From Strix aluco (Eukaryota; Chordata; Aves; Strigiformes; Strigidae), in assembly GCF_031877795.1 (NCBI RefSeq), contig NC_133942.1, positions 3,410,001 through 3,474,000 of the forward strand: a stretch of DNA of 64,000 nucleotides, in the 5' to 3' direction. Below, piece by piece: positions 1 through 48,034 of the stretch; position 1 is the first letter of the stretch; each line of letters begins with the position of its first letter. Below the pieces are notes generated by a model. It saw only the letters and a list, made by a program, of their open reading frames with translations. It ran no database searches and was not told where the DNA came from. The position numbers and the translations under genes were made by a program.

Positions 1-1570
1 TTGCCCCTGGGGACACAAAATGGGGCACACCAATCCAGATGTGGCCTCTGCAGTGCCAAGGGAAGGGCAACCCTCCCTCCCCTCAGCTTTCGACCAACAG
101 TTTGAGTTGGAAAAGACATTTTGAGATGACCCATGCCAACCATGGGTCCACCAAACAGGTCTGCTTTCACCTGAACAGGGGCTTGAGGCCTGCTCCCCAC
201 CCTACCAGCCAGAGGCTCTCACAGCTGAGCCTCCCAGGCCCACAAGTGGGCCACCAGATGACACTGAGGGTGCCAGCACTGGTGAGCGGTGAGAATAAAT
301 GGGAGGTTTGGATGACTTGGAGGGAGACAGTAGACAGCTTATGTTGGTGGAATAGTTTTGTCTGGATCTTTTTGCTAGCTCTGGCAAGCATTGTGCAATG
401 CCTGAGCATGGACCATAATACCACACAACCTGCAAAACTGATCATTTCCATCACTAGATGAAAATAGCTCTGATTCTCTTTCGGCTCTAGACGACGAGAG
501 TGGCGCTGAGTATATGGTATGGAGGTGATACATGTGGCAGTGCCTGTCTGCATGCAGAGCAAGGGTGGGAGGTGGTTGCAGTGGTGGTGGTGAGCATGAG
601 GAGCAGCTTGAGGAATGGTGTGTGCAGAGGACGTGAAGAAGGATTCCAGCCACTGTGTAATTTGGGTGTGCGGTGGGAGGAAGTCTATTCTTTGTGCAAT
701 GGTCCAAAGGCCTGTCTGTCTGGGCTGAAGTCACCCTGGAGACGCTGACCTACCCTCTCCAGGCTCCGGCATCGCAGAGACACCCTGAAGTTTACTGGAA
801 CTGCGTGTAACAATGCTCCTGGTAACTAAGAACTGAGACACCCTCATTGCTCTTGCAGCTTACGGCCCGTGGGCCAAGGCAAACACAAGGCGCCTCTCAT
901 AACTGGATTCTCTACCGAACGGGGACAAAGCTTCTCAAGTCTCTCACTCCAGGCTTGCTTCAAAGAAAAACAGCCATGCTCTTTGCTGTGCTGACAGTCA
1001 AAAGCCATCCTGGGCAGTGGGGTTGTATGTGGGGTTTGTGTTAGCACACGAGTTACAGACTCCCACTCTGTCATCAGCAGTCCTACGAGTAGGTGGAGTG
1101 AAGAACGGGAGGATCATGATTGCGCATGTCAGTTCCCTATGGAAATGCCCACCCTAACCTCATCTGGCACTCACACTGCCTACCTCCAGACATGAAAAGA
1201 GGTGCTTTTCTCCTTTCCTCTCCATACGCATGCCCTGGAATTTATTCCCACAGCACCATAGAAAAAGAGAGAAGTGCCATGACTGTTTTTCATACGATGT
1301 TTGTGAGCAAAAATTAAGAGGACCAAAATGCTCATTCAAACTATCTGTATTAAATACCTCAAGGAACAATGTGGCAACTGGCCCCACAGGCCCATGATCA
1401 GCAGGTTACAGATTCATGCTCAACGACTCTGAGGCTTTTTGGTGCTCTGCTATCAGTTGAGGGAGCTCTATCCCCAACTGGTGGTGAGCTCAGGACAGAA
1501 GTCAGTGCTCTTCCTTGCAGAGCAGAGGGTTAACTGAGGCAGGAGGAGAACAAACCACCACGGGTCTCCA
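1..1570. other. Array unit, non-genic part A (downstream of the keratin gene)
   Basis: Phases 1-1570 of each unit hold no recognised gene. Open frames up to 140 codons exist on both strands but resemble no known family and are broken in the diverged copies at 42305-42790 and 48180-48840. A GGT-rich stretch lies near 565-600. It separates the poly(A) site of one gene from the distal upstream flank of the gene to its left. Confidence 0.7.
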
Positions 1571-1586
1571 GCTGTGTTGCACAGTC

Positions 1587-1592
1587 TTTAAT
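1587..1592 (-). terminator. Poly(A) signal ATTAAA of keratin copy 1 (repeats every 4554 bp)
   Basis: ATTAAA on the minus strand about 425 bp past the stop codon. The equivalent sites of copies 2-9 are at 6141, 10695, 15249, 19803, 24357, 28911, 33465 and 38019. It is conserved in the inverted gene, which supports it as the true transcript end. Confidence 0.7.
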
Positions 1593-2017
1593 GAGAAGGA
1601 AGAAACGCAGTGGCACAGAACAGAGACCAAGAAACACATCTGCAGGGTTCAGGGAGGCACAGAGAATGGCCCGTTTCCCAAGGACAAGCTCCACACAAAG
1701 CGCTTGCCTTTTCCCATTCTGCTCTACCTGCTGGCCATCCCAGACCACCAAGAGCAGTCCTTAACTCCGGCACCCTCCCCGCAGCAGCAGGAGGTTCAGC
1801 AAAGCAGAAGAAAATGAGCCCTTTCTCGCTGAGTTCAGAGTGAAGCAGAGCGACAGGAGACACGGTGAGGACTGTCATGCAGTGAGGAGAAGTGAGCACA
1901 GGTCTCTTGGGCCAGGTGGAAGGAGAACACCCAGCCCGTCTGCAAGCAATGGCCACGCTCCCGCTGCTGAAAGTTCCTTGTCTTCCATCCTGCTCCAAAG
2001 GGGATGACCTGCCGCAT

Positions 2018-2335
2018 TCAGCAGTTCATACTGCAGAAGGGGGGAGGCAGACACAGCCCTGACCCTCCCAGGCCAAGGGAGCCCCCAGAAGAGATGGGAA
2101 CCCCCCCGGAGCTGAGGGAGCTCCCAACAGCAGCCGACAGAGAGGATCCCACGGCTGTGCTCTGGGGGAAAGAGGTGAGGATGGGGCCCGGCAGGGTCAC
2201 CACCACCGGGGAGGCCTGGATGGCCACCGTCGAGTCAGCGCAGCGGGCGACACAGGGCTCACTGCAGCTGCTTGCCAGTGGGGTTGGGCCAGAGGCACCG
2301 CAGGGGCGTGGGGGACAGGGTCTGCAGCAAGACAT
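2018..2335 (-). CDS. Feather-type corneous beta-protein (beta-keratin), array copy 1
   Basis: Encodes a 105-residue structural protein that would polymerise into the beta-sheet filaments of cornified avian skin appendages. It has a Cys-rich head (Cys 3, 4, 7, 12, 24, 28, 32), the family beta-core at about residues 34-67 containing [15 protein letters not shown] with prolines 43, 49, 51 and 57, then a Gly/Ser-rich segment (GVPISSGG at 78-85) and a tail ending [11 protein letters not shown] (Cys 95, 101, 105). No Lys, Tyr, Trp or His. The head motif [17 protein letters not shown] matches feather keratins, but the tail differs from the usual RRCLPC ending and the protein is slightly longer than the common 97-98 residues. 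The start is set by the splice acceptor at 2357-2358, 21 bp before the ATG; an in-frame Met further upstream lies in the intron. The coding region is one exon, as is usual for the family. Confidence 0.93.
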
Positions 2336-2356
2336 CTCTCGGTGAGGGAGGCAAAC

Positions 2357-2895
2357 CTGAAACACAGAGCAGGCAGGAAGCACCAAATTCAGTATCAGCC
2401 TGTCTCTCTTTTCCTCAGCTCTCTCTGTGGACACTGTATGCTTTAAAAGCTCAGACTGTGCCTACATCTCCCACGACCCTCATTGTGCCCTCCGAGTTGC
2501 ACGGTACAGGAAGGCTGACCCACGTAGGGATAGGACCCACCACAGTGGGTTTGAAGCACCCGTGGAAACACTGATCACAGCCCACCTCCAGAACGCGCAG
2601 TGCTGATCTTGAAGGCACTGGATGCACCTGGCCGTTTGGTTAGAGACCATCTGCTGCAGGTGCAAATTCTGGTGGGCAGGCCTCCCTGCAGCTGAGCCCC
2701 ATTGATTCCCTTCTGCTTGGAAGAACCCCCTCCTCCCAGGCCTCCCCAGCCACCTCCGCCAAGAGGGAAAGAGGTGACAGCCCTTCAACAGTTCTATTGC
2801 AGGCCCAGGCCGAGGCAGCCCAAGTGTCAACCTGAGCAGCCACCATGACAGCAGTTCAGCCCACAGAGAGAGAGATGCAGCGGACTCAGGCTTAC
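2357..2895 (-). other. 5'UTR intron of keratin copy 1 (representative)
   Basis: 539-bp intron with donor GTAAGC after exon 1 (ending at 2896) and acceptor TTTCAG before exon 2 (starting at 2356). The same interval recurs in every unit at +4554 steps and in the inverted gene at 45729-46267. Most variation between array units falls in or near this intron (phases 2406, 2596, 2634, 2656, 2733, 2804, 2808). Confidence 0.82.
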
Positions 2896-2955
2896 CTCGT
2901 TCCTCGAGGAAAGGGAGGCAAGAGAGGAGGATGCAGAGCCTGGAGCAGCGCAGGC

Positions 2956-2961
2956 TTTTAT
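2956..2961 (-). promoter_or_regulatory. TATA box of keratin copy 1
   Basis: ATAAAA on the minus strand, 60 bp upstream of the exon 1 donor (intron 2357-2895, GTAAGC at its start, TTTCAG at its end). Transcription should begin near 2930, giving an exon 1 of roughly 35 bases. A TATA box plus a short untranslated first exon and a 5'UTR intron is the standard layout of avian beta-keratin genes. Confidence 0.8.
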
Positions 2962-2969
2962 GCTGTGTC

Positions 2970-4554
2970 CCCGAGCCCCGTGGGGCCACAAACATTCCTT
3001 GCTCATGAAGCATCTGAACACCTAGCAGTTGTCGCTTGCTGAGGACTCGCTGGTGATTCAGCCCTTGCCTCTTTCATCCGAAATGTTGTGATCCCGCTTC
3101 ACACCACTGAACATCGAAACGATTCATCTGTGTCCCAGCTTCCTAAGTCCAATCAACTCAGTGGTCTCAGGCTAGTGTACAAGGGGATTTGAAGTGCGTT
3201 TGCATGATACAGATTGCCTTTGTCACTTTGCCTTCTTCATGGCGAGCATGGCCACCAGTCACAGTGAAATTGAGCTTTGAGGGACACCTCAAGTCAAGTG
3301 CTGTCAGTGCAGGCACTCCGGTTAACCCTGAGAGACATTTCCCCCCACGGGTCACGTAGACACACTGTGAGTAAGTTCAGGCAGCAGGGCAAGACGGCAC
3401 AATCCCCTATGGCGGGAGAAGAGACTCATCTCACCAGGGGTGAGGCAAAGCTCAACTCAACGGCAAAGTCCATTGTGGGCTGGAAGGATGTCCCCTGCGG
3501 GCAGGACTGATGGCCGTGAGGACCTTGCTTACGCTCATCAGGCTCTGCCACAGACTGGTGATGTGAGCAAAGCCGTGCCCACGTCCTTCCCTGAAGGAGA
3601 CCCACACGCAAATTGACCTGTTCTGCTCAGGGAGTTCATCCCAGAGGCCAGAGGCCACCATGGCCTGCTTTTGAGGGGAGGCTCGGGGCACGGAGCCAGG
3701 AGCTCCTGGCCCTTTACCCTGGGTCAGGGATGGGGTGGCCCATTCCATTCATTTCTGATTTCAAAGGGACATTGGATCAGTCTCCCAGAGCACTGGGAGT
3801 CATCGTGATGTGGAAGAGTCGGGAAAAACCCTCAGCTCCTGGCAAACATGAGTCACCCTGCTGTGGACTTCAGTGGACACGGTGGCCTGGTTCCCATGCG
3901 TGCCAGGGATACCAGAGCTCATAGCCCCAAAGTGCCGCCTTCCTCAAGGGTATTTCCACACATTTTAGCACCATTCCTGAATCAACTGGTGCTTCTCTGC
4001 AATCTCCTGCATTTTTTGTCTTCCGTGGCATGGTGGCTTTTGGTGGCTGCTCAGGGGCTCGTGTGACGCAGTGTCCCCCAGAACAACAAAGGTTGCAATG
4101 GGCCTCTGGAGGTCTTCTGCTCCGATCCACTGCTCTGTGCAGACCAAACTTCCCAGGTACCTCCGCAGGCTCTGGGCCTTGTCCTGTTGACTTCTGAACA
4201 CTGCCACTGTCAGAGAGGTCCCTGTCTCTTGAGTAGCTCTTCCAGGGCTGCACCGTGAGCTCTGTCACTGCTTTTCCCAAAAAGACATTTCCCTTGTTGC
4301 AACTTGTGGTTGTTGCCCCTTGCCCTTTTGCAGTGCACCTCTCAGGAGAGTCTGGCTCCATCCTTTCTCTAACCTCCTGGAGCTGGTGGGAGACAGCAGT
4401 TCCATTCCCTCCTCCCCACTTTGCTCATCTCCGCCAGGTTCCACAAACCTTGTGCCCTCGGCCTCACCCCATACGTCCCTCGCTCCAGCCCTTGCGTCCC
4501 GCCTGCTCCTCTGCCAGTACCTCTCTCCATGAGAGATCATCACCACCACCTCTC
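2970..4554. other. Array unit, non-genic part B (keratin 5' flank)
   Basis: Phases 2970-4554 lie upstream of the keratin promoter. No gene is recognised; the longest open frames (163, 134 and 119 codons) have no family resemblance. A diverged inverted version of phases about 3440-4230 survives at 43240-44235, where the frames are not kept. Regulatory elements of the keratin gene may be here, but none can be named. Confidence 0.65.
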
Positions 4555-6571
4555 TTGCCCCTGGGGACACAAAATGGGGCACACCAATCCAGATGTGGCC
4601 TCTGCAGTGCCAAGGGAAGGGCAACCCTCCCTCCCCTCAGCTTTCGACCAACAGTTTGAGTTGGAAAAGACATTTTGAGATGACCCATGCCAACCATGGG
4701 TCCACCAAACAGGTCTGCTTTCACCTGAACAGGGGCTTGAGGCCTGCTCCCCACCCTACCAGCCAGAGGCTCTCACAGCTGAGCCTCCCAGGCCCACAAG
4801 TGGGCCACCAGATGACACTGAGGGTGCCAGCACTGGTGAGCGGTGAGAATAAATGGGAGGTTTGGATGACTTGGAGGGAGACAGTAGACAGCTTATGTTG
4901 GTGGAATAGTTTTGTCTGGATCTTTTTGCTAGCTCTGGCAAGCATTGTGCAATGCCTGAGCATGGACCATAATACCACACAACCTGCAAAACTGATCATT
5001 TCCATCACTAGATGAAAATAGCTCTGATTCTCTTTCGGCTCTAGACGACGAGAGTGGCGCTGAGTATATGGTATGGAGGTGATACATGTGGCAGTGCCTG
5101 TCTGCATGCAGAGCAAGGGTGGGAGGTGGTTGCAGTGGTGGTGGTGAGCATGAGGAGCAGCTTGAGGAATGGTGTGTGCAGAGGACGTGAAGAAGGATTC
5201 CAGCCACTGTGTAATTTGGGTGTGCGGTGGGAGGAAGTCTATTCTTTGTGCAATGGTCCAAAGGCCTGTCTGTCTGGGCTGAAGTCACCCTGGAGACGCT
5301 GACCTACCCTCTCCAGGCTCCGGCATCGCAGAGACACCCTGAAGTTTACTGGAACTGCGTGTAACAATGCTCCTGGTAACTAAGAACTGAGACACCCTCA
5401 TTGCTCTTGCAGCTTACGGCCCGTGGGCCAAGGCAAACACAAGGCGCCTCTCATAACTGGATTCTCTACCGAACGGGGACAAAGCTTCTCAAGTCTCTCA
5501 CTCCAGGCTTGCTTCAAAGAAAAACAGCCATGCTCTTTGCTGTGCTGACAGTCAAAAGCCATCCTGGGCAGTGGGGTTGTATGTGGGGTTTGTGTTAGCA
5601 CACGAGTTACAGACTCCCACTCTGTCATCAGCAGTCCTACGAGTAGGTGGAGTGAAGAACGGGAGGATCATGATTGCGCATGTCAGTTCCCTATGGAAAT
5701 GCCCACCCTAACCTCATCTGGCACTCACACTGCCTACCTCCAGACATGAAAAGAGGTGCTTTTCTCCTTTCCTCTCCATACGCATGCCCTGGAATTTATT
5801 CCCACAGCACCATAGAAAAAGAGAGAAGTGCCATGACTGTTTTTCATACGATGTTTGTGAGCAAAAATTAAGAGGACCAAAATGCTCATTCAAACTATCT
5901 GTATTAAATACCTCAAGGAACAATGTGGCAACTGGCCCCACAGGCCCATGATCAGCAGGTTACAGATTCATGCTCAACGACTCTGAGGCTTTTTGGTGCT
6001 CTGCTATCAGTTGAGGGAGCTCTATCCCCAACTGGTGGTGAGCTCAGGACAGAAGTCAGTGCTCTTCCTTGCAGAGCAGAGGGTTAACTGAGGCAGGAGG
6101 AGAACAAACCACCACGGGTCTCCAGCTGTGTTGCACAGTCTTTAATGAGAAGGAAGAAACGCAGTGGCACAGAACAGAGACCAAGAAACACATCTGCAGG
6201 GTTCAGGGAGGCACAGAGAATGGCCCGTTTCCCAAGGACAAGCTCCACACAAAGCGCTTGCCTTTTCCCATTCTGCTCTACCTGCTGGCCATCCCAGACC
6301 ACCAAGAGCAGTCCTTAACTCCGGCACCCTCCCCGCAGCAGCAGGAGGTTCAGCAAAGCAGAAGAAAATGAGCCCTTTCTCGCTGAGTTCAGAGTGAAGC
6401 AGAGCGACAGGAGACACGGTGAGGACTGTCATGCAGTGAGGAGAAGTGAGCACAGGTCTCTTGGGCCAGGTGGAAGGAGAACACCCAGCCCGTCTGCAAG
6501 CAATGGCCACGCTCCCGCTGCTGAAAGTTCCTTGTCTTCCATCCTGCTCCAAAGGGGATGACCTGCCGCAT

Positions 6572-6889
6572 TCAGCAGTTCATACTGCAGAAGGGGGGAG
6601 GCAGACACAGCCCTGACCCTCCCAGGCCAAGGGAGCCCCCAGAAGAGATGGGAACCCCCCCGGAGCTGAGGGAGCTCCCAACAGCAGCCGACAGAGAGGA
6701 TCCCACGGCTGTGCTCTGGGGGAAAGAGGTGAGGATGGGGCCCGGCAGGGTCACCACCACCGGGGAGGCCTGGATGGCCACCGTCGAGTCAGCGCAGCGG
6801 GCGACACAGGGCTCACTGCAGCTGCTTGCCAGTGGGGTTGGGCCAGAGGCACCGCAGGGGCGTGGGGGACAGGGTCTGCAGCAAGACAT
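6572..6889 (-). CDS. Feather-type beta-keratin, array copy 2
   Basis: The predicted 105-residue protein is identical to copy 1. Gene structure is the same: acceptor just after position 6911, donor at 7448-7449, TATA at 7510. This unit shares the C at phase 2406 (intron) with units 1 and 9 and carries a private A at 7188 inside the 5'UTR intron. Neither change touches the coding exon or splice sites. Confidence 0.93.
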
Positions 6890-7509
6890 CTCTCGGTGAG
6901 GGAGGCAAACCTGAAACACAGAGCAGGCAGGAAGCACCAAATTCAGTATCAGCCTGTCTCTCTTTTCCTCAGCTCTCTCTGTGGACACTGTATGCTTTAA
7001 AAGCTCAGACTGTGCCTACATCTCCCACGACCCTCATTGTGCCCTCCGAGTTGCACGGTACAGGAAGGCTGACCCACGTAGGGATAGGACCCACCACAGT
7101 GGGTTTGAAGCACCCGTGGAAACACTGATCACAGCCCACCTCCAGAACGCGCAGTGCTGATCTTGAAGGCACTGGATGCACCTGGCCATTTGGTTAGAGA
7201 CCATCTGCTGCAGGTGCAAATTCTGGTGGGCAGGCCTCCCTGCAGCTGAGCCCCATTGATTCCCTTCTGCTTGGAAGAACCCCCTCCTCCCAGGCCTCCC
7301 CAGCCACCTCCGCCAAGAGGGAAAGAGGTGACAGCCCTTCAACAGTTCTATTGCAGGCCCAGGCCGAGGCAGCCCAAGTGTCAACCTGAGCAGCCACCAT
7401 GACAGCAGTTCAGCCCACAGAGAGAGAGATGCAGCGGACTCAGGCTTACCTCGTTCCTCGAGGAAAGGGAGGCAAGAGAGGAGGATGCAGAGCCTGGAGC
7501 AGCGCAGGC

Positions 7510-7515
7510 TTTTAT
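7510..7515 (-). promoter_or_regulatory. TATA box of keratin copy 2
   Basis: ATAAAA in the context of copy 1, unchanged. Confidence 0.78.
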
Positions 7516-10500
7516 GCTGTGTCCCCGAGCCCCGTGGGGCCACAAACATTCCTTGCTCATGAAGCATCTGAACACCTAGCAGTTGTCGCTTGCTGAGGAC
7601 TCGCTGGTGATTCAGCCCTTGCCTCTTTCATCCGAAATGTTGTGATCCCGCTTCACACCACTGAACATCGAAACGATTCATCTGTGTCCCAGCTTCCTAA
7701 GTCCAATCAACTCAGTGGTCTCAGGCTAGTGTACAAGGGGATTTGAAGTGCGTTTGCATGATACAGATTGCCTTTGTCACTTTGCCTTCTTCATGGCGAG
7801 CATGGCCACCAGTCACAGTGAAATTGAGCTTTGAGGGACACCTCAAGTCAAGTGCTGTCAGTGCAGGCACTCCGGTTAACCCTGAGAGACATTTCCCCCC
7901 ACGGGTCACGTAGACACACTGTGAGTAAGTTCAGGCAGCAGGGCAAGACGGCACAATCCCCTATGGCGGGAGAAGAGACTCATCTCACCAGGGGTGAGGC
8001 AAAGCTCAACTCAACGGCAAAGTCCATTGTGGGCTGGAAGGATGTCCCCTGCGGGCAGGACTGATGGCCGTGAGGACCTTGCTTACGCTCATCAGGCTCT
8101 GCCACAGACTGGTGATGTGAGCAAAGCCGTGCCCACGTCCTTCCCTGAAGGAGACCCACACGCAAATTGACCTGTTCTGCTCAGGGAGTTCATCCCAGAG
8201 GCCAGAGGCCACCATGGCCTGCTTTTGAGGGGAGGCTCGGGGCACGGAGCCAGGAGCTCCTGGCCCTTTACCCTGGGTCAGGGATGGGGTGGCCCATTCC
8301 ATTCATTTCTGATTTCAAAGGGACATTGGATCAGTCTCCCAGAGCACTGGGAGTCATCGTGATGTGGAAGAGTCGGGAAAAACCCTCAGCTCCTGGCAAA
8401 CATGAGTCACCCTGCTGTGGACTTCAGTGGACACGGTGGCCTGGTTCCCATGCGTGCCAGGGATACCAGAGCTCATAGCCCCAAAGTGCCGCCTTCCTCA
8501 AGGGTATTTCCACACATTTTAGCACCATTCCTGAATCAACTGGTGCTTCTCTGCAATCTCCTGCATTTTTTGTCTTCCGTGGCATGGTGGCTTTTGGTGG
8601 CTGCTCAGGGGCTCGTGTGACGCAGTGTCCCCCAGAACAACAAAGGTTGCAATGGGCCTCTGGAGGTCTTCTGCTCCGATCCACTGCTCTGTGCAGACCA
8701 AACTTCCCAGGTACCTCCGCAGGCTCTGGGCCTTGTCCTGTTGACTTCTGAACACTGCCACTGTCAGAGAGGTCCCTGTCTCTTGAGTAGCTCTTCCAGG
8801 GCTGCACCGTGAGCTCTGTCACTGCTTTTCCCAAAAAGACATTTCCCTTGTTGCAACTTGTGGTTGTTGCCCCTTGCCCTTTTGCAGTGCACCTCTCAGG
8901 AGAGTCTGGCTCCATCCTTTCTCTAACCTCCTGGAGCTGGTGGGAGACAGCAGTTCCATTCCCTCCTCCCCACTTTGCTCATCTCCGCCAGGTTCCACAA
9001 ACCTTGTGCCCTCGGCCTCACCCCATACGTCCCTCGCTCCAGCCCTTGCGTCCCGCCTGCTCCTCTGCCAGTACCTCTCTCCATGAGAGATCATCACCAC
9101 CACCTCTCTTGCCCCTGGGGACACAAAATGGGGCACACCAATCCAGATGTGGCCTCTGCAGTGCCAAGGGAAGGGCAACCCTCCCTCCCCTCAGCTTTCG
9201 ACCAACAGTTTGAGTTGGAAAAGACATTTTGAGATGACCCATGCCAACCATGGGTCCACCAAACAGGTCTGCTTTCACCTGAACAGGGGCTTGAGGCCTG
9301 CTCCCCACCCTACCAGCCAGAGGCTCTCACAGCTGAGCCTCCCAGGCCCACAAGTGGGCCACCAGATGACACTGAGGGTGCCAGCACTGGTGAGCGGTGA
9401 GAATAAATGGGAGGTTTGGATGACTTGGAGGGAGACAGTAGACAGCTTATGTTGGTGGAATAGTTTTGTCTGGATCTTTTTGCTAGCTCTGGCAAGCATT
9501 GTGCAATGCCTGAGCATGGACCATAATACCACACAACCTGCAAAACTGATCATTTCCATCACTAGATGAAAATAGCTCTGATTCTCTTTCGGCTCTAGAC
9601 GACGAGAGTGGCGCTGAGTATATGGTATGGAGGTGATACATGTGGCAGTGCCTGTCTGCATGCAGAGCAAGGGTGGGAGGTGGTTGCAGTGGTGGTGGTG
9701 AGCATGAGGAGCAGCTTGAGGAATGGTGTGTGCAGAGGACGTGAAGAAGGATTCCAGCCACTGTGTAATTTGGGTGTGCGGTGGGAGGAAGTCTATTCTT
9801 TGTGCAATGGTCCAAAGGCCTGTCTGTCTGGGCTGAAGTCACCCTGGAGACGCTGACCTACCCTCTCCAGGCTCCGGCATCGCAGAGACACCCTGAAGTT
9901 TACTGGAACTGCGTGTAACAATGCTCCTGGTAACTAAGAACTGAGACACCCTCATTGCTCTTGCAGCTTACGGCCCGTGGGCCAAGGCAAACACAAGGCG
10001 CCTCTCATAACTGGATTCTCTACCGAACGGGGACAAAGCTTCTCAAGTCTCTCACTCCAGGCTTGCTTCAAAGAAAAACAGCCATGCTCTTTGCTGTGCT
10101 GACAGTCAAAAGCCATCCTGGGCAGTGGGGTTGTATGTGGGGTTTGTGTTAGCACACGAGTTACAGACTCCCACTCTGTCATCAGCAGTCCTACGAGTAG
10201 GTGGAGTGAAGAACGGGAGGATCATGATTGCGCATGTCAGTTCCCTATGGAAATGCCCACCCTAACCTCATCTGGCACTCACACTGCCTACCTCCAGACA
10301 TGAAAAGAGGTGCTTTTCTCCTTTCCTCTCCATACGCATGCCCTGGAATTTATTCCCACAGCACCATAGAAAAAGAGAGAAGTGCCATGACTGTTTTTCA
10401 TACGATGTTTGTGAGCAAAAATTAAGAGGACCAAAATGCTCATTCAAACTATCTGTATTAAATACCTCAAGGAACAATGTGGCAACTGGCCCCACAGGCC

Positions 10501-11125
10501 CATGATCAGCAGGTTACAGATTCATGCTCAACGACTCTGAGGCTTTTTGGTGCTCTGCTATCAGTTGAGGGAGCTCTATCCCCAACTGGTGGTGAGCTCA
10601 GGACAGAAGTCAGTGCTCTTCCTTGCAGAGCAGAGGGTTAACTGAGGCAGGAGGAGAACAAACCACCACGGGTCTCCAGCTGTGTTGCACAGTCTTTAAT
10701 GAGAAGGAAGAAACGCAGTGGCACAGAACAGAGACCAAGAAACACATCTGCAGGGTTCAGGGAGGCACAGAGAATGGCCCGTTTCCCAAGGACAAGCTCC
10801 ACACAAAGCGCTTGCCTTTTCCCATTCTGCTCTACCTGCTGGCCATCCCAGACCACCAAGAGCAGTCCTTAACTCCGGCACCCTCCCCGCAGCAGCAGGA
10901 GGTTCAGCAAAGCAGAAGAAAATGAGCCCTTTCTCGCTGAGTTCAGAGTGAAGCAGAGCGACAGGAGACACGGTGAGGACTGTCATGCAGTGAGGAGAAG
11001 TGAGCACAGGTCTCTTGGGCCAGGTGGAAGGAGAACACCCAGCCCGTCTGCAAGCAATGGCCACGCTCCCGCTGCTGAAAGTTCCTTGTCTTCCATCCTG
11101 CTCCAAAGGGGATGACCTGCCGCAT

Positions 11126-11443
11126 TCAGCAGTTCATACTGCAGAAGGGGGGAGGCAGACACAGCCCTGACCCTCCCAGGCCAAGGGAGCCCCCAGAAGA
11201 GATGGGAACCCCCCCGGAGCTGAGGGAGCTCCCAACAGCAGCCGACAGAGAGGATCCCACGGCTGTGCTCTGGGGGAAAGAGGTGAGGATGGGGCCCGGC
11301 AGGGTCACCACCACCGGGGAGGCCTGGATGGCCACCGTCGAGTCAGCGCAGCGGGCGACACAGGGCTCACTGCAGCTGCTTGCCAGTGGGGTTGGGCCAG
11401 AGGCACCGCAGGGGCGTGGGGGACAGGGTCTGCAGCAAGACAT
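11126..11443 (-). CDS. Feather-type beta-keratin, array copy 3
   Basis: Protein identical to copy 1. The first unit with T at phase 2406, a state shared by units 3-8. Private changes are at 11704 (intron) and 12380 (upstream flank), and an A at 12793 is shared only with unit 5. All lie outside the coding exon, TATA box and splice sites. Confidence 0.93.
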
Positions 11444-12063
11444 CTCTCGGTGAGGGAGGCAAACCTGAAACACAGAGCAGGCAGGAAGCACCAAATTCAG
11501 TATCAGCCTGTCTTTCTTTTCCTCAGCTCTCTCTGTGGACACTGTATGCTTTAAAAGCTCAGACTGTGCCTACATCTCCCACGACCCTCATTGTGCCCTC
11601 CGAGTTGCACGGTACAGGAAGGCTGACCCACGTAGGGATAGGACCCACCACAGTGGGTTTGAAGCACCCGTGGAAACACTGATCACAGCCCACCTCCAGA
11701 ACGTGCAGTGCTGATCTTGAAGGCACTGGATGCACCTGGCCGTTTGGTTAGAGACCATCTGCTGCAGGTGCAAATTCTGGTGGGCAGGCCTCCCTGCAGC
11801 TGAGCCCCATTGATTCCCTTCTGCTTGGAAGAACCCCCTCCTCCCAGGCCTCCCCAGCCACCTCCGCCAAGAGGGAAAGAGGTGACAGCCCTTCAACAGT
11901 TCTATTGCAGGCCCAGGCCGAGGCAGCCCAAGTGTCAACCTGAGCAGCCACCATGACAGCAGTTCAGCCCACAGAGAGAGAGATGCAGCGGACTCAGGCT
12001 TACCTCGTTCCTCGAGGAAAGGGAGGCAAGAGAGGAGGATGCAGAGCCTGGAGCAGCGCAGGC

Positions 12064-12069
12064 TTTTAT
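12064..12069 (-). promoter_or_regulatory. TATA box of keratin copy 3
   Basis: ATAAAA, unchanged from copy 1. Confidence 0.78.
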
Positions 12070-15000
12070 GCTGTGTCCCCGAGCCCCGTGGGGCCACAAA
12101 CATTCCTTGCTCATGAAGCATCTGAACACCTAGCAGTTGTCGCTTGCTGAGGACTCGCTGGTGATTCAGCCCTTGCCTCTTTCATCCGAAATGTTGTGAT
12201 CCCGCTTCACACCACTGAACATCGAAACGATTCATCTGTGTCCCAGCTTCCTAAGTCCAATCAACTCAGTGGTCTCAGGCTAGTGTACAAGGGGATTTGA
12301 AGTGCGTTTGCATGATACAGATTGCCTTTGTCACTTTGCCTTCTTCATGGCGAGCATGGCCACCAGTCACAGTGAAATTCAGCTTTGAGGGACACCTCAA
12401 GTCAAGTGCTGTCAGTGCAGGCACTCCGGTTAACCCTGAGAGACATTTCCCCCCACGGGTCACGTAGACACACTGTGAGTAAGTTCAGGCAGCAGGGCAA
12501 GACGGCACAATCCCCTATGGCGGGAGAAGAGACTCATCTCACCAGGGGTGAGGCAAAGCTCAACTCAACGGCAAAGTCCATTGTGGGCTGGAAGGATGTC
12601 CCCTGCGGGCAGGACTGATGGCCGTGAGGACCTTGCTTACGCTCATCAGGCTCTGCCACAGACTGGTGATGTGAGCAAAGCCGTGCCCACGTCCTTCCCT
12701 GAAGGAGACCCACACGCAAATTGACCTGTTCTGCTCAGGGAGTTCATCCCAGAGGCCAGAGGCCACCATGGCCTGCTTTTGAGGGGAGGCTCAGGGCACG
12801 GAGCCAGGAGCTCCTGGCCCTTTACCCTGGGTCAGGGATGGGGTGGCCCATTCCATTCATTTCTGATTTCAAAGGGACATTGGATCAGTCTCCCAGAGCA
12901 CTGGGAGTCATCGTGATGTGGAAGAGTCGGGAAAAACCCTCAGCTCCTGGCAAACATGAGTCACCCTGCTGTGGACTTCAGTGGACACGGTGGCCTGGTT
13001 CCCATGCGTGCCAGGGATACCAGAGCTCATAGCCCCAAAGTGCCGCCTTCCTCAAGGGTATTTCCACACATTTTAGCACCATTCCTGAATCAACTGGTGC
13101 TTCTCTGCAATCTCCTGCATTTTTTGTCTTCCGTGGCATGGTGGCTTTTGGTGGCTGCTCAGGGGCTCGTGTGACGCAGTGTCCCCCAGAACAACAAAGG
13201 TTGCAATGGGCCTCTGGAGGTCTTCTGCTCCGATCCACTGCTCTGTGCAGACCAAACTTCCCAGGTACCTCCGCAGGCTCTGGGCCTTGTCCTGTTGACT
13301 TCTGAACACTGCCACTGTCAGAGAGGTCCCTGTCTCTTGAGTAGCTCTTCCAGGGCTGCACCGTGAGCTCTGTCACTGCTTTTCCCAAAAAGACATTTCC
13401 CTTGTTGCAACTTGTGGTTGTTGCCCCTTGCCCTTTTGCAGTGCACCTCTCAGGAGAGTCTGGCTCCATCCTTTCTCTAACCTCCTGGAGCTGGTGGGAG
13501 ACAGCAGTTCCATTCCCTCCTCCCCACTTTGCTCATCTCCGCCAGGTTCCACAAACCTTGTGCCCTCGGCCTCACCCCATACGTCCCTCGCTCCAGCCCT
13601 TGCGTCCCGCCTGCTCCTCTGCCAGTACCTCTCTCCATGAGAGATCATCACCACCACCTCTCTTGCCCCTGGGGACACAAAATGGGGCACACCAATCCAG
13701 ATGTGGCCTCTGCAGTGCCAAGGGAAGGGCAACCCTCCCTCCCCTCAGCTTTCGACCAACAGTTTGAGTTGGAAAAGACATTTTGAGATGACCCATGCCA
13801 ACCATGGGTCCACCAAACAGGTCTGCTTTCACCTGAACAGGGGCTTGAGGCCTGCTCCCCACCCTACCAGCCAGAGGCTCTCACAGCTGAGCCTCCCAGG
13901 CCCACAAGTGGGCCACCAGATGACACTGAGGGTGCCAGCACTGGTGAGCGGTGAGAATAAATGGGAGGTTTGGATGACTTGGAGGGAGACAGTAGACAGC
14001 TTATGTTGGTGGAATAGTTTTGTCTGGATCTTTTTGCTAGCTCTGGCAAGCATTGTGCAATGCCTGAGCATGGACCATAATACCACACAACCTGCAAAAC
14101 TGATCATTTCCATCACTAGATGAAAATAGCTCTGATTCTCTTTCGGCTCTAGACGACGAGAGTGGCGCTGAGTATATGGTATGGAGGTGATACATGTGGC
14201 AGTGCCTGTCTGCATGCAGAGCAAGGGTGGGAGGTGGTTGCAGTGGTGGTGGTGAGCATGAGGAGCAGCTTGAGGAATGGTGTGTGCAGAGGACGTGAAG
14301 AAGGATTCCAGCCACTGTGTAATTTGGGTGTGCGGTGGGAGGAAGTCTATTCTTTGTGCAATGGTCCAAAGGCCTGTCTGTCTGGGCTGAAGTCACCCTG
14401 GAGACGCTGACCTACCCTCTCCAGGCTCCGGCATCGCAGAGACACCCTGAAGTTTACTGGAACTGCGTGTAACAATGCTCCTGGTAACTAAGAACTGAGA
14501 CACCCTCATTGCTCTTGCAGCTTACGGCCCGTGGGCCAAGGCAAACACAAGGCGCCTCTCATAACTGGATTCTCTACCGAACGGGGACAAAGCTTCTCAA
14601 GTCTCTCACTCCAGGCTTGCTTCAAAGAAAAACAGCCATGCTCTTTGCTGTGCTGACAGTCAAAAGCCATCCTGGGCAGTGGGGTTGTATGTGGGGTTTG
14701 TGTTAGCACACGAGTTACAGACTCCCACTCTGTCATCAGCAGTCCTACGAGTAGGTGGAGTGAAGAACGGGAGGATCATGATTGCGCATGTCAGTTCCCT
14801 ATGGAAATGCCCACCCTAACCTCATCTGGCACTCACACTGCCTACCTCCAGACATGAAAAGAGGTGCTTTTCTCCTTTCCTCTCCATACGCATGCCCTGG
14901 AATTTATTCCCACAGCACCATAGAAAAAGAGAGAAGTGCCATGACTGTTTTTCATACGATGTTTGTGAGCAAAAATTAAGAGGACCAAAATGCTCATTCA

Positions 15001-15679: not shown

Positions 15680-15997
15680 TCAGCAGTTCATACTGCAGAA
15701 GGGGGGAGGCAGACACAGCCCTGACCCTCCCAGGCCAAGGGAGCCCCCAGAAGAGATGGGAACCCCCCCGGAGCTGAGGGAGCTCCCAACAGCAGCCGAC
15801 AGAGAGGATCCCACGGCTGTGCTCTGGGGGAAAGAGGTGAGGATGGGGCCCGGCAGGGTCACCACCACCGGGGAGGCCTGGATGGCCACCGTCGAGTCAG
15901 CGCAGCGGGCGACACAGGGCTCACTGCAGCTGCTTGCCAGTGGGGTTGGGCCAGAGGCACCGCAGGGGCGTGGGGGACAGGGTCTGCAGCAAGACAT
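15680..15997 (-). CDS. Feather-type beta-keratin, array copy 4
   Basis: Protein identical to copy 1. The intron carries A at phase 2656, shared with units 5, 6 and 9, and the upstream flank carries a private A at 17349. Promoter, exon 1 and splice signals are unchanged. Confidence 0.93.
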
Positions 15998-20233: not shown

Positions 20234-20551
20234 TCAGCAGTTCATACTGCAGAAGGGGGGAGGCAGACACAGCCCTGACCCTCCCAGGCCAAGGGAGCCC
20301 CCAGAAGAGATGGGAACCCCCCCGGAGCTGAGGGAGCTCCCAACAGCAGCCGACAGAGAGGATCCCACGGCTGTGCTCTGGGGGAAAGAGGTGAGGATGG
20401 GGCCCGGCAGGGTCACCACCACCGGGGAGGCCTGGATGGCCACCGTCGAGTCAGCGCAGCGGGCGACACAGGGCTCACTGCAGCTGCTTGCCAGTGGGGT
20501 TGGGCCAGAGGCACCGCAGGGGCGTGGGGGACAGGGTCTGCAGCAAGACAT
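20234..20551 (-). CDS. Feather-type beta-keratin, array copy 5
   Basis: Protein identical to copy 1. This is one of the more variable units: intron changes at phases 2656, 2733, 2804 and 2808 are shared with unit 9 (the last three also with the inverted gene), phase 780 is shared with unit 8, and phase 3685 with unit 3. A private change at 21115 alters the fourth-last base of exon 1 next to the GTAAGC donor; the donor itself is intact, so splicing should be preserved. Confidence 0.92.
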
Positions 20552-24787: not shown

Positions 24788-25105
24788 TCAGCAGTTCATA
24801 CTGCAGAAGGGGGGAGGCAGACACAGCCCTGACCCTCCCAGGCCAAGGGAGCCCCCAGAAGAGATGGGAACCCCCCCGGAGCTGAGGGAGCTCCCAACAG
24901 CAGCCGACAGAGAGGATCCCACGGCTGTGCTCTGGGGGAAAGAGGTGAGGATGGGGCCCGGCAGGGTCACCACCACCGGGGAGGCCTGGATGGCCACCGT
25001 CGAGTCAGCGCAGCGGGCGACACAGGGCTCACTGCAGCTGCTTGCCAGTGGGGTTGGGCCAGAGGCACCGCAGGGGCGTGGGGGACAGGGTCTGCAGCAA
25101 GACAT
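24788..25105 (-). CDS. Feather-type beta-keratin, array copy 6
   Basis: Protein identical to copy 1. The unit carries C at phase 1232 (24002), shared with unit 7 and the partial tenth unit, and A at phase 2656 in the intron. The gene's promoter, exon 1, splice sites and poly(A) signal match the others. Confidence 0.93.
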
Positions 25106-29341: not shown

Positions 29342-29659
29342 TCAGCAGTTCATACTGCAGAAGGGGGGAGGCAGACACAGCCCTGACCCTCCCAGGCCAA
29401 GGGAGCCCCCAGAAGAGATGGGAACCCCCCCGGAGCTGAGGGAGCTCCCAACAGCAGCCGACAGAGAGGATCCCACGGCTGTGCTCTGGGGGAAAGAGGT
29501 GAGGATGGGGCCCGGCAGGGTCACCACCACCGGGGAGGCCTGGATGGCCACCGTCGAGTCAGCGCAGCGGGCGACACAGGGCTCACTGCAGCTGCTTGCC
29601 AGTGGGGTTGGGCCAGAGGCACCGCAGGGGCGTGGGGGACAGGGTCTGCAGCAAGACAT
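29342..29659 (-). CDS. Feather-type beta-keratin, array copy 7
   Basis: Protein identical to copy 1. A private T at 29175 lies in the 3'UTR. Phase 1232 has C, as in unit 6, while the intron at phase 2656 has the G seen in units 1-3 and 8, so the linkage of variants differs from unit 6. Confidence 0.93.
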
Positions 29660-30279: not shown

Positions 30280-30285
30280 TTTTAT
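30280..30285 (-). promoter_or_regulatory. TATA box of keratin copy 7
   Basis: ATAAAA, unchanged from copy 1. Confidence 0.78.
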
Positions 30286-33895: not shown

Positions 33896-34213
33896 TCAGC
33901 AGTTCATACTGCAGAAGGGGGGAGGCAGACACAGCCCTGACCCTCCCAGGCCAAGGGAGCCCCCAGAAGAGATGGGAACCCCCCCGGAGCTGAGGGAGCT
34001 CCCAACAGCAGCCGACAGAGAGGATCCCACGGCTGTGCTCTGGGGGAAAGAGGTGAGGATGGGGCCCGGCAGGGTCACCACCACCGGGGAGGCCTCGATG
34101 AACACCGTCGAGTCAGCGCAGCGGGCGACACAGGGCTCACTGCAGCTGCTTGCCAGTGGGGTTGGGCCAGAGGCACCGCAGGGGCGTGGGGGACAGGGTC
34201 TGCAGCAAGACAT
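33896..34213 (-). CDS. Feather-type beta-keratin, array copy 8 (A38F, Q40E variant)
   Basis: Same architecture and length as the other copies, but three base differences within seven bases (34096, 34101, 34102) change residues 38 and 40 from Ala/Gln to Phe/Glu at the start of the beta-core (VFIEAS instead of VAIQAS). The inverted gene at 46289 has the same change. The rest of the protein is identical. Bulky Phe and acidic Glu in the first strand of the core could alter filament packing, but no functional effect can be read from sequence. The flanking variants (T at phase 2406, G at phase 2656) are of array type. Confidence 0.93.
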
Positions 34214-34833
34214 CTCTCGGTGAGGGAGGCAAACCTGAAACACAGAGCAGGCAGGAAGCACCAAATTCAGTATCAGCCTGTCTTTCTTTTCCTCAGCTCT
34301 CTCTGTGGACACTGTATGCTTTAAAAGCTCAGACTGTGCCTACATCTCCCACGACCCTCATTGTGCCCTCCGAGTTGCACGGTACAGGAAGGCTGACCCA
34401 CGTAGGGATAGGACCCACCACAGTGGGTTTGAAGCACCCGTGGAAACACTGATCACAGCCCACCTCCAGAACGCGCAGTGCTGATCTTGAAGGCACTGGA
34501 TGCACCTGGCCGTTTGGTTAGAGACCATCTGCTGCAGGTGCAAATTCTGGTGGGCAGGCCTCCCTGCAGCTGAGCCCCATTGATTCCCTTCTGCTTGGAA
34601 GAACCCCCTCCTCCCAGGCCTCCCCAGCCACCTCCGCCAAGAGGGAAAGAGGTGACAGCCCTTCAACAGTTCTATTGCAGGCCCAGGCCGAGGCAGCCCA
34701 AGTGTCAACCTGAGCAGCCACCATGACAGCAGTTCAGCCCACAGAGAGAGAGATGCAGCGGACTCAGGCTTACCTCGTTCCTCGAGGAAAGGGAGGCAAG
34801 AGAGGAGGATGCAGAGCCTGGAGCAGCGCAGGC

Positions 34834-34839
34834 TTTTAT
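34834..34839 (-). promoter_or_regulatory. TATA box of keratin copy 8
   Basis: ATAAAA, unchanged from copy 1. Confidence 0.78.
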
Positions 34840-37800: not shown

Positions 37801-38449
37801 ATGTGGCAACTGGCCCCACAGGCCCATGATCAGCAGGTTACAGATTCATGCTCAACGACTCTGAGGCTTTTTGGTGCTCTGCTATCAGTTGAGGGAGCTC
37901 TATCCCCAACTGGTGGTGAGCTCAGGACAGAAGTCAGTGCTCTTCCTTGCAGAGCAGAGGGTTAACTGAGGCAGGAGGAGAACAAACCACCACGGGTCTC
38001 CAGCTGTGTTGCACAGTCTTTAATGAGAAGGAAGAAACGCAGTGGCACAGAACAGAGACCAAGAAACACATCTGCAGGGTTCAGGGAGGCACAGAGAATG
38101 GCCCGTTTCCCAAGGACAAGCTCCACACAAAGCGCTTGCCTTTTCCCATTCTGCTCTACCTGCTGGCCATCCCAGACCACCAAGAGCAGTCCTTAACTCC
38201 GGCACCCTCCCCGCAGCAGCAGGAGGTTCAGCAAAGCAGAAGAAAATGAGCCCTTTCTCGCTGAGTTCAGAGTGAAGCAGAGCGACAGGAGACACGGTGA
38301 GGACTGTCATGCAGTGAGGAGAAGTGAGCACAGGTCTCTTGGGCCAGGTGGAAGGAGAACACCCAGCCCGTCTGCAAGCAATGGCCACGCTCCCGCTGCT
38401 GAAAGTTCCTTGTCTTCCATCCTGCTCCAAAGGGGATGACCTGCCGCAT

Positions 38450-38767
38450 TCAGCAGTTCATACTGCAGAAGGGGGGAGGCAGACACAGCCCTGACCCTCC
38501 CAGGCCAAGGGAGCCCCCAGAAGAGATGGGAACCCCCCCGGAGCTGAGGGAGCTCCCAACAGCAGCCGACAGAGAGGATCCCACGGCTGTGCTCTGGGGG
38601 AAAGAGGTGAGGATGGGGCCCGGCAGGGTCACCACCACCGGGGAGGCCTGGATGGCCACCGTCGAGTCAGCGCAGCGGGCGACACAGGGCTCACTGCAGC
38701 TGCTTGCCAGTGGGGTTGGGCCAGAGGCACCGCAGGGGCGTGGGGGACAGGGTCTGCAGCAAGACAT
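38450..38767 (-). CDS. Feather-type beta-keratin, array copy 9 (last whole unit)
   Basis: Protein identical to copy 1. The intron combines C at phase 2406 with the phases 2656, 2733, 2804 and 2808 variants of unit 5; the last three are also in the inverted gene. It is transcribed away from the array edge, so its promoter faces back to back with that of the inverted gene about 6.3 kb to the right. Confidence 0.93.
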
Positions 38768-39387
38768 CTCTCGGTGAGGGAGGCAAACCTGAAACACAGA
38801 GCAGGCAGGAAGCACCAAATTCAGTATCAGCCTGTCTCTCTTTTCCTCAGCTCTCTCTGTGGACACTGTATGCTTTAAAAGCTCAGACTGTGCCTACATC
38901 TCCCACGACCCTCATTGTGCCCTCCGAGTTGCACGGTACAGGAAGGCTGACCCACGTAGGGATAGGACCCACCACAGTGGGTTTGAAGCACCCGTGGAAA
39001 CACTGATCACAGCCCACCTCCAGAACGCGCAGTGCTGATCTTGAAGGCACTGGATGCACCTGGCCGTTTGGTTAGAGACCATCTGCTACAGGTGCAAATT
39101 CTGGTGGGCAGGCCTCCCTGCAGCTGAGCCCCATTGATTCCCTTCTGCTTGGAAGAACCCCCTCTTCCCAGGCCTCCCCAGCCACCTCCGCCAAGAGGGA
39201 AAGAGGTGACAGCCCTTCAACAGTTCTATTGCAGGGCCAAGCCGAGGCAGCCCAAGTGTCAACCTGAGCAGCCACCATGACAGCAGTTCAGCCCACAGAG
39301 AGAGAGATGCAGCGGACTCAGGCTTACCTCGTTCCTCGAGGAAAGGGAGGCAAGAGAGGAGGATGCAGAGCCTGGAGCAGCGCAGGC

Positions 39388-39393
39388 TTTTAT
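39388..39393 (-). promoter_or_regulatory. TATA box of keratin copy 9
   Basis: ATAAAA, unchanged; the nearest divergent promoter is that of the inverted gene at 45663. Confidence 0.78.
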
Positions 39394-42299
39394 GCTGTGT
39401 CCCCGAGCCCCGTGGGGCCACAAACATTCCTTGCTCATGAAGCATCTGAACACCTAGCAGTTGTCGCTTGCTGAGGACTCGCTGGTGATTCAGCCCTTGC
39501 CTCTTTCATCCGAAATGTTGTGATCCCGCTTCACACCACTGAACATCGAAACGATTCATCTGTGTCCCAGCTTCCTAAGTCCAATCAACTCAGTGGTCTC
39601 AGGCTAGTGTACAAGGGGATTTGAAGTGCGTTTGCATGATACAGATTGCCTTTGTCACTTTGCCTTCTTCATGGCGAGCATGGCCACCAGTCACAGTGAA
39701 ATTGAGCTTTGAGGGACACCTCAAGTCAAGTGCTGTCAGTGCAGGCACTCCGGTTAACCCTGAGAGACATTTCCCCCCACGGGTCACGTAGACACACTGT
39801 GAGTAAGTTCAGGCAGCAGGGCAAGACGGCACAATCCCCTATGGCGGGAGAAGAGACTCATCTCACCAGGGGTGAGGCAAAGCTCAACTCAACGGCAAAG
39901 TCCATTGTGGGCTGGAAGGATGTCCCCTGCGGGCAGGACTGATGGCCGTGAGGACCTTGCTTACGCTCATCAGGCTCTGCCACAGACTGGTGATGTGAGC
40001 AAAGCCGTGCCCACGTCCTTCCCTGAAGGAGACCCACACGCAAATTGACCTGTTCTGCTCAGGGAGTTCATCCCAGAGGCCAGAGGCCACCATGGCCTGC
40101 TTTTGAGGGGAGGCTCGGGGCACGGAGCCAGGAGCTCCTGGCCCTTTACCCTGGGTCAGGGATGGGGTGGCCCATTCCATTCATTTCTGATTTCAAAGGG
40201 ACATTGGATCAGTCTCCCAGAGCACTGGGAGTCATCGTGATGTGGAAGAGTCGGGAAAAACCCTCAGCTCCTGGCAAACATGAGTCACCCTGCTGTGGAC
40301 TTCAGTGGACACGGTGGCCTGGTTCCCATGCGTGCCAGGGATACCAGAGCTCATAGCCCCAAAGTGCCGCCTTCCTCAAGGGTATTTCCACACATTTTAG
40401 CACCATTCCTGAATCAACTGGTGCTTCTCTGCAATCTCCTGCATTTTTTGTCTTCCGTGGCATGGTGGCTTTTGGTGGCTGCTCAGGGGCTCGTGTGACG
40501 CAGTGTCCCCCAGAACAACAAAGGTTGCAATGGGCCTCTGGAGGTCTTCTGCTCCGATCCACTGCTCTGTGCAGACCAAACTTCCCAGGTACCTCCGCAG
40601 GCTCTGGGCCTTGTCCTGTTGACTTCTGAACACTGCCACTGTCAGAGAGGTCCCTGTCTCTTGAGTAGCTCTTCCAGGGCTGCACCGTGAGCTCTGTCAC
40701 TGCTTTTCCCAAAAAGACATTTCCCTTGTTGCAACTTGTGGTTGTTGCCCCTTGCCCTTTTGCAGTGCACCTCTCAGGAGAGTCTGGCTCCATCCTTTCT
40801 CTAACCTCCTGGAGCTGGTGGGAGACAGCAGTTCCATTCCCTCCTCCCCACTTTGCTCATCTCCGCCAGGTTCCACAAACCTTGTGCCCTCGGCCTCACC
40901 CCATACGTCCCTCGCTCCAGCCCTTGCGTCCCGCCTGCTCCTCTGCCAGTACCTCTCTCCATGAGAGATCATCACCACCACCTCTCTTGCCCCTGGGGAC
41001 ACAAAATGGGGCACACCAATCCAGATGTGGCCTCTGCAGTGCCAAGGGAAGGGCAACCCTCCCTCCCCTCAGCTTTCGACCAACAGTTTGAGTTGGAAAA
41101 GACATTTTGAGATGACCCATGCCAACCATGGGTCCACCAAACAGGTCTGCTTTCACCTGAACAGGGGCTTGAGGCCTGCTCCCCACCCTACCAGCCAGAG
41201 GCTCTCACAGCTGAGCCTCCCAGGCCCACAAGTGGGCCACCAGATGACACTGAGGGTGCCAGCACTGGTGAGCGGTGAGAATAAATGGGAGGTTTGGATG
41301 ACTTGGAGGGAGACAGTAGACAGCTTATGTTGGTGGAATAGTTTTGTCTGGATCTTTTTGCTAGCTCTGGCAAGCATTGTGCAATGCCTGAGCATGGACC
41401 ATAATACCACACAACCTGCAAAACTGATCATTTCCATCACTAGATGAAAATAGCTCTGATTCTCTTTCGGCTCTAGACGACGAGAGTGGCGCTGAGTATA
41501 TGGTATGGAGGTGATACATGTGGCAGTGCCTGTCTGCATGCAGAGCAAGGGTGGGAGGTGGTTGCAGTGGTGGTGGTGAGCATGAGGAGCAGCTTGAGGA
41601 ATGGTGTGTGCAGAGGACGTGAAGAAGGATTCCAGCCACTGTGTAATTTGGGTGTGCGGTGGGAGGAAGTCTATTCTTTGTGCAATGGTCCAAAGGCCTG
41701 TCTGTCTGGGCTGAAGTCACCCTGGAGACGCTGACCTACCCTCTCCAGGCTCCGGCATCGCAGAGACACCCTGAAGTTTACTGGAACTGCGTGTAACAAT
41801 GCTCCTGGTAACTAAGAACTGAGACACCCTCATTGCTCTTGCAGCTTACGGCCCGTGGGCCAAGGCAAACACAAGGCGCCTCTCATAACTGGATTCTCTA
41901 CCGAACGGGGACAAAGCTTCTCAAGTCTCTCACTCCAGGCTTGCTTCAAAGAAAAACAGCCATGCTCTTTGCTGTGCTGACAGTCAAAAGCCATCCTGGG
42001 CAGTGGGGTTGTATGTGGGGTTTGTGTTAGCACACGAGTTACAGACTCCCACTCTGTCATCAGCAGTCCTACGAGTAGGTGGAGTGAAGAACGGGAGGAT
42101 CATGATTGCGCATGTCAGTTCCCTATGGAAATGCCCACCCTAACCTCATCTGGCACTCACACTGCCTACCTCCAGACATGAAAAGAGGTGCTTTTCTCCT
42201 TTCCTCTCCATACGCATCCCCTGGAATTTATTCCCACAGCACCATAGAAAAAGAGAGAAGTGCCATGACTGTTTTTCATACAATGTTTGTGAGCAAAAA

Positions 42300-42304
42300 T
42301 TAAG
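42300..42304. other. Right breakpoint of the array
   Basis: The partial tenth unit matches the array through phase 1318 and then switches to sequence homologous to phase about 861 of a diverged unit. The five bases TTAAG occur at the join in both partners: the array has AAAATTAAGAGG, the diverged copy (reverse strand near 48721) has GCAGCTTAAGGCC. This is a microhomology junction or an illegitimate crossover between misaligned units. Confidence 0.8.
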
Positions 42305-47990: not shown

Positions 47991-48034
47991 CCCACTTCTG
48001 CACATCTAGGGACTCTGTCAGCCCTGCCAAAGGG

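Follow-up and report, generated by a model that had tools for sequence, protein, structure and literature searches.

Concerted evolution is known in tandem arrays such as those of ribosomal DNA (rDNA) and the histone genes. The closest described systems to the locus reported here are the beta-keratin arrays of the chicken. According to the available portions of the two chicken surveys, these genes form direct tandem arrays, with an equal spacing of about 3 kb on chromosome 25 (GGA25), and on GGA27 11 of the 61 beta-keratin genes lie on the opposite strand, at one end (PMC2894828); a later count gives 47 beta-keratin genes for chromosome 27 (PMC4202321). The same portions describe BKJ, a protein of 109 amino acids present in three copies or one on chicken chromosome 6 (PMC2894828, PMC4202321). 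As excerpted, a 2014 survey of 48 birds lists 6 complete beta-keratins for the barn owl (PMC4264316). Here we analysed 64,000 nucleotides from the owl Strix aluco, positions 3,410,001 to 3,474,000 of contig NC_133942.1 (C12:3410001-3474000, hereafter the window), together with 180 kb fetched to its left and 20 kb to its right, in a genome assembly of 1.41 Gb and 202 contigs. The window holds a direct tandem array of beta-keratin genes which resembles those of chicken microchromosomes 25 and 27, in so far as the same portions describe them, in its short proteins of Pfam family PF02422, its direct orientation and its even spacing.

We consider it likely that this feather-type array of 20 genes goes back to one founding duplication, was multiplied by unequal crossing-over, has been kept alike by gene conversion and is maintained for a benefit of dosage.

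Results

A direct tandem array of 20 keratin genes

Within the window the array occupies positions 1..42304, where units of 4554 bp follow one another in direct orientation, nine of them whole, with a further 1318 bp after them. When lags of 100-14,999 were compared, the top three were 4554, 9108 and 13662 (identity 0.68-0.73), the next reaching 0.27. Self-matches across 1..42304 were ungapped, with 0 gaps and an identity of 99.85-99.90%. An earlier sequence-only reading had proposed an exact 4554-bp period over nine whole units without insertions or deletions (indels), and had suggested aligning the units with one another; both the lag analysis and the gapless self-alignment bear it out. Tandem Repeats Finder, with a longest period of 500, is blind to such an array. 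The earlier reading had also placed an uncounted continuation beyond the left edge of the window. That continuation stands and can now be counted: in the assembly it comprises 11 further whole units and part of a twelfth, giving a full span of C12:3358330-3452304 (93,975 bp, 20.64 units).

Each unit carries one minus-strand beta-keratin open reading frame (ORF), and the 20 genes are spaced by exactly 4554 bp in 19 of 19 intervals. The coding sequence (CDS) of unit 0 matched PF02422 with E = 6.3e-30, covering profile positions 1-80 of 80. It runs from the ATG at 2335 to the TGA at 2020-2018, and the 318 coding bases per unit claimed earlier are thus correct with the stop included. The array and its CDSs in the window are as follows.

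1..42304, no strand, right-hand part of the direct tandem array, nine whole units plus 1318 bp (lag analysis, self-alignment)
2018..2335, minus strand, beta-keratin CDS of unit 0, 105 amino acids plus stop (PF02422, sequence, spacing)
6572..6889, minus strand, keratin CDS of unit 1
11126..11443, minus strand, keratin CDS of unit 2
15680..15997, minus strand, keratin CDS of unit 3
20234..20551, minus strand, keratin CDS of unit 4
24788..25105, minus strand, keratin CDS of unit 5
29342..29659, minus strand, keratin CDS of unit 6
33896..34213, minus strand, keratin CDS of unit 7, with A38F and Q40E
38450..38767, minus strand, keratin CDS of unit 8

The ORFs are intact in 20 of 20 units and the proteins identical in 18 of them, the exceptions being T36M in unit -9 and A38F with Q40E in unit 7. 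The two changes in unit 7 come from three linked bases, an ancestral haplotype of the family that is common to an inverted copy beside the array.

Probable exchange among the units

The whole array has 28 variable columns out of 4554, of which 18 differ in one unit only and 10 are shared, and 68 of its 93,975 bases depart from the consensus. Among the nine whole units of the window we counted 18 variable columns, within the range of 17-20 that had been estimated by eye. The 20 whole units differ pairwise by 5.0 sites on average, a nucleotide diversity (pi) of 0.0011; if birds mutate at about 2e-9 per site per year, this would correspond very roughly to some 0.3 million years, a figure that exchange distorts. 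In terms of phase, the position within the 4554-bp unit, phases 2900-3271 hold zero variable columns among the whole units, and variation at 3002 is confined to the truncated first unit. Copies are more alike inside the array than they are to seven A-type copies outside it (94.3-96.5% identity), with the exception of a 1.87-kb piece within the adjoining inverted repeat (C12:3329461-3331327), which is 99.7% identical to the array.

This low divergence would follow from a single very recent burst from one unit, for example by rolling-circle amplification or repeated unequal crossing-over, with mutation only thereafter. Such a burst would also explain why one junction is common to all units, and why 14 of the 18 single-unit variants are derived and private (three more are the ancestral haplotype of unit 7 and one is unpolarised). 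The shared sites fit it poorly. Four-gamete incompatibility was observed in 25 of 45 pairs of shared sites, a number of conflicts reached in 2 of 1039 mutation-only simulated duplication histories with 20-40 variable columns (mutation in the simulation was uniform; CpG sites had no special rate, and none occurs among the 10 shared sites). Ancestral alleles also persist at intermediate frequency: with the ancestral allele defined as the one carried by most related A-type copies, it is the rarer or an equally common one at 7 of the 10 shared columns (1232, 2406, 2733, 2804, 2808, 3272 and 3685), and derived alleles are therefore part-way through the array. We regard a burst without later exchange as improbable.

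Differences between units rise with distance along the array, from 4.1 between neighbours to 8 at 19 units (one pair), and distance and difference are correlated (Mantel r 0.40; 1 of 20,000 permutations). The array shows the marks of concerted evolution, namely likeness within the array, conflicting sites, decay with distance and conversion tracts. It had been proposed earlier that the array reflects either recent amplification or continuous homogenisation. Homogenisation is supported by the site conflicts, the ancestral alleles and a tract in the inverted copy, whereas a single burst alone fits poorly, and the array appears to have been amplified and to be under ongoing exchange.

The intact ORFs in 20 of 20 units would equally be produced by purifying selection on the keratin protein, acting in place of exchange to keep the units identical. 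However, variable columns make up 4 of 318 in the CDS and 24 of 4236 elsewhere (P = 0.13), or 1 of 318 in the CDS (P = 1) without the three-site tract of unit 7, and the intergenic DNA is equally uniform. As the CDS is not depleted of variable columns, purifying selection was ruled out as the sole cause, and we find it scarcely credible in place of exchange.

Near-identity of the units, including adjacent units -1 and 0 and also units -10 and -4, which are identical, is what would be expected had the assembler inflated an array that has far fewer units in the genome. Against this, the 20 whole units comprise 18 distinct sequences, in an order without any recurring series. Neighbours differ by a mean of 4.1 sites, in principle enough for long reads to separate them. 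CpG transitions account for 11 of the 28 variable columns, compared with CpG bases at 4.6% of the unit (P = 2e-8), an excess that points to germline mutation and not to read error. On this internal evidence inflation is unlikely, and we allow it only a slight chance.

A probable conversion tract in the inverted neighbour

To the right of the array lies an older copy of the unit in inverted orientation.

43205..48839, minus strand, older inverted unit copy, in pieces (self-alignment)
46289..46606, plus strand, inverted keratin CDS (profile search)
45584..46722, plus strand, putative conversion tract, array phases 1902-3040 (ends placed via ungapped alignment)

Pieces outside the gene match the array at 79-89% identity, and the sequence just upstream of the gene at about 70-76%. 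The copy is related to the B-type, that is, the inverted partner genes of a second keratin array further left (C12:3280664-3329101), which has 10,618-bp units with paired opposite genes. At sites informative between array and B-type, the inverted copy follows the B-type on either side, at 28 of 30 sites in phases 1482-1895 and at 27 of 27 in phases 3079-3154, and the array in between, at 50 of 56 in phases 1902-3040; the remaining 36 of the 149 informative sites, up to phase 3295, are mixed. Its longest array-type run is 29, which 0 of 20,000 shuffles reached. We read this array-type tract between B-type flanks as gene conversion. It covers the predicted proximal promoter, exon 1, intron and CDS.

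The six exceptions within the tract are 2218, 2223 and 2224, which carry the allele of unit 7, and 2733, 2804 and 2808, which carry alleles of units 4 and 8; for these alleles retained ancestry and back-conversion are both possible. Over phases 1902-3040, 1139 bases in all, the inverted copy departs from the array consensus 10 times, in 6 cases at an array polymorphism, and over phases 1939-2913 (975 bp) there are six mismatches to the consensus, 6 of 6 being array polymorphisms. The same phases 1902-3040 show 35-45 differences from three A-type copies and 60-67 from three B-type copies. Of the 31 sites that distinguish the array from the A-type, 24 are array-like in the inverted copy, so that the likeliest donor of the tract is the array, possibly as it stood earlier.

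Origin of the unit

In the 10,618-bp unit, phases 656-4554 plus 1-287 of the 4554-bp unit correspond to a single block at 96.5% identity, and phases 289-627 to another block located 550 bp upstream of it. Between the two lies the junction.

287..289, no strand, duplication junction within the unit (phase 287 to 289), GTGAGC/G/GTGAGA, with about one extra base

There is no long homology at the break, and the junction is the same in all units, given that no column varies before phase 467. A junction of this kind, without long homology and invariant among units, suggests one duplication of the end-joining or replication type, with homologous exchange following it. The array starts at phase 2978 and ends at phase 1318, and its edges were therefore probably rearranged later.

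Direction of change at variable columns

All variable columns but the one at phase 492 could be polarised, and these 27 comprise 17 GC-to-AT changes, 6 AT-to-GC changes and 4 of neither kind. GC-to-AT derived alleles are confined to one unit at 14 of 17 columns, and the AT-to-GC derived alleles are present in 4, 10, 18, 18, 19 and 19 of 20-21 units. The difference in spread has P = 0.0003 with the sites as they stand. With linked sites merged and CpG dropped, 4 and 7 sites are compared and P = 0.021, or 0.0095 if column 3685, where the outgroup is split, is also omitted. This AT-to-GC excess is the pattern of GC-biased gene conversion and hints at that process. That GC-biased conversion is the main force fixing variants across the array, on direct and inverted copies alike, is a tentative proposal that we hold to be somewhat less probable than its negation. 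If true, new mutations, nearly all GC-to-AT and many of them at CpG, would be purged as GC-raising variants sweep the array, and it would be repair bias, not selection on the protein, that keeps avian keratin arrays uniform and drives them to high GC.

The constant period

The exactly constant period had been taken as a sign of recent amplification or homogenisation, and here the earlier reading was too confident. Aligned with three copies of the 10,618-bp array, the 4554-bp array shows 6 gap events per 132-139 substitutions. At that ratio the 28 variable columns lead to an expectation of 1.2 indels, and zero indels has P = 0.30. The repeats within the unit include no homopolymer longer than 7 and one (AG)5. 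Given this expectation and the lack of long simple repeats, the constant period is unsurprising; a young unit free of microsatellites suffices to explain it.

Another keratin array on the same contig, with 6.6-kb units in two orientations (C12:3030535-3158784), served as a control. Three consecutive units, taken from at least 20 such genes, are homogeneous, differing by 0 or 6 substitutions, but their lengths differ by 50 and 10 bp, only at (AATCC)n and (GGAGG)n. In the minus-strand part of this array the gene spacing takes 13 values over 14 intervals. A special meaning of the indel-free period was rejected on the grounds of the indel expectation and of this control.

A special constraint on unit length, through chromatin spacing or an exchange process that rejects indels, would draw some support from the 10,618-bp array, whose interior has no register shift over 81 variable columns in the first 3.3 units (115 in 4.4 units). 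Pooling this interior with the 4554-bp array raises the expectation to 4.7 indels and lowers the probability of none to 0.009, a value computed after the fact and not relied on. The 4554-bp array by itself gives 0.30, other keratin arrays in the same genome vary in unit length, and the 10,618-bp array is itself gapped near its edges, its alignment having 49 gap columns. Such a constraint is, in our judgement, very unlikely to lie behind the 4554-bp period.

Gene structure and database matches

In avian beta-keratin genes exon 1 is noncoding and the 5' untranslated region (UTR) holds an intron. Read from the sequence of unit 0 on the minus strand, the predicted exon-1 donor is at 2895 and the acceptor at 2358-2357, followed by the ATG at 2335 and the stop at 2020-2018. 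Candidate polyadenylation signals in the same unit are ATTAAA at 1592 and AATAAA at 1246.

2357..2895, minus strand, predicted 539-bp intron in the 5' UTR of unit 0, from GT at 2895-2894 to AG at 2358-2357 (from sequence)
2955..2962, minus strand, TATA-like CATAAAAG, 60-67 bp upstream of the exon-1 donor (consensus only)

Among the 120 keratin matches listed of 608, all that carry a species name are avian (6 of 120 are without a name), and the best named ones among those listed are from budgerigar (90%), manakin (87%) and Tyto alba (89% over 92% of the query). The predicted N-terminus of the Tyto alba database protein matches a frame at window positions 2480-3013 on the minus strand, which begins 5' of the TATA-like box and extends into exon 1. 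The Tyto alba model is therefore probably mis-started and begins outside the true coding region.

Surrounding locus and other keratin arrays

Large inverted repeats lie at C12:3230001-3298450 (31.5 kb, 99.3%) and C12:3329461-3360193 (10.6 kb, 99.6%), and the locus is therefore a patchwork of palindromes and direct arrays. The left end of the 4554-bp array overlaps one arm of the 10.6-kb repeat at 99.6%, and the other arm holds the 1.87 kb of unit sequence at C12:3329461-3331327 (99.7%). ORF pieces at C12:3335511-3336122 and C12:3353535-3354146, which by eye we take to be CR1-type reverse transcriptase-like, sit in the two arms of this repeat. Elsewhere in the genome, keratin arrays on contigs C21 and C24 have periods of 14,723/14,725, 6598/6599 and 6374-6384 bp (among scored matches). 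The genome contains 477 keratin candidates, of which at least 150 are matches (150 of 150 scored).

The remainder of the window carries olfactory receptor fragments at 56680-57356 (two overlapping frames) and 60691-60975, the latter receptor-like by eye only and with no Pfam match. Long receptor-like ORFs follow downstream at L027:7585-8553 and L028:7782-8789 (C12:3491782-3492789). The olfactory receptor at C12:3491782-3492789 looks intact and is 98% identical over 321 amino acids to one of Bubo scandiacus, the next match, from a crane, being at 87%. On sequence alone this match places the bird probably in the family Strigidae, a placement that the keratin matches by themselves would not give; a turtle origin was rejected, given the avian keratin matches and this receptor. 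Searched against NCBIfam, a prokaryote library, the olfactory receptors gave no match. Two minus-strand tRNA matches, Gly at 50485-50556 (63 bits) and Met at 52094-52165 (58 bits), may be genes or repeat-derived.

Discussion

In the account that we favour, the founding duplication would have brought together two points of an older keratin segment that lay some 5 kb from each other, and unequal crossing-over between misaligned units would have set the copy number. Gene conversion, possibly GC-biased, would spread variants along the array and would have reached the inverted copy 4 kb away. The benefit may be one of gene dosage, in that numerous copies would supply one and the same structural protein to feather or skin.

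Several points weigh against this account or against parts of it. The minority allele is derived at 3 of the 10 shared columns (780, 2656 and 3687), and the outgroup alleles are split at 916, 1768, 2634, 2808 and 3685. The surviving ancestral alleles could stem from an amplification founded by at least two slightly different units and not from later conversion; a mixed founding of this sort would account for part of the ancestral-allele pattern. Within the conversion tract four mismatches (1938, 2914, 2972 and 2985) are not array polymorphisms, and 7 of the 31 sites that separate array and A-type are A-type in the inverted copy; the tract may have come from a mosaic donor or from the array as it was at an earlier time. 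Past phase 3200 the identity of the inverted copy to the B-type (77%) is not much above that to the array (70%). As for GC bias, one GC-to-AT allele is present at 11 of 21 units, and the test draws on few, linked sites.

No report of the owl array was found in the literature searched, a search that leaves many journals outside it and covered long listings in part. Evenly spaced beta-keratin arrays are already known, and the main value of the locus is as a test case for the homogenisation of keratin arrays. With a resolved array, outgroup copies, an inverted neighbour and ten sites in mid-spread, the roles of crossing-over, conversion and repair bias become measurable. Earlier counts of avian keratins come from assemblies that resolved such arrays with difficulty. 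The barn owl figure of 6, as it appears in the survey excerpt, stands against at least 150 keratin matches here, in another owl family and by another way of counting.

Compared with the chicken work, what is new is the resolution of whole units, the measured pattern of exchange and the conversion with an inverted copy. The 2010 suggestion that gene conversion among beta-keratins is very rare, as worded in the portion available, does not fit the owl locus. Unlike the chicken arrays, the owl array has whole 4.55-kb units that are about 99.9% identical over 94 kb, it lies near OR10A7-like receptor genes on a 27.5-Mb contig, and conversion involving an inverted copy is visible. Its protein is close to the chicken 'beta-keratin-related protein-like' (XP_015147353.2), with 90% identity over 97 aligned residues, and differs from BKJ, compared by length and copy number as given in the surveys' available portions, in having 105 and not 109 amino acids and 20 copies. 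The array shares with the concerted evolution of rDNA and histone genes a similarity that falls with distance and units that are mosaics. It differs from those arrays in its small scale of 20 units, and in that an inverted copy outside the array took part in the exchange as well.

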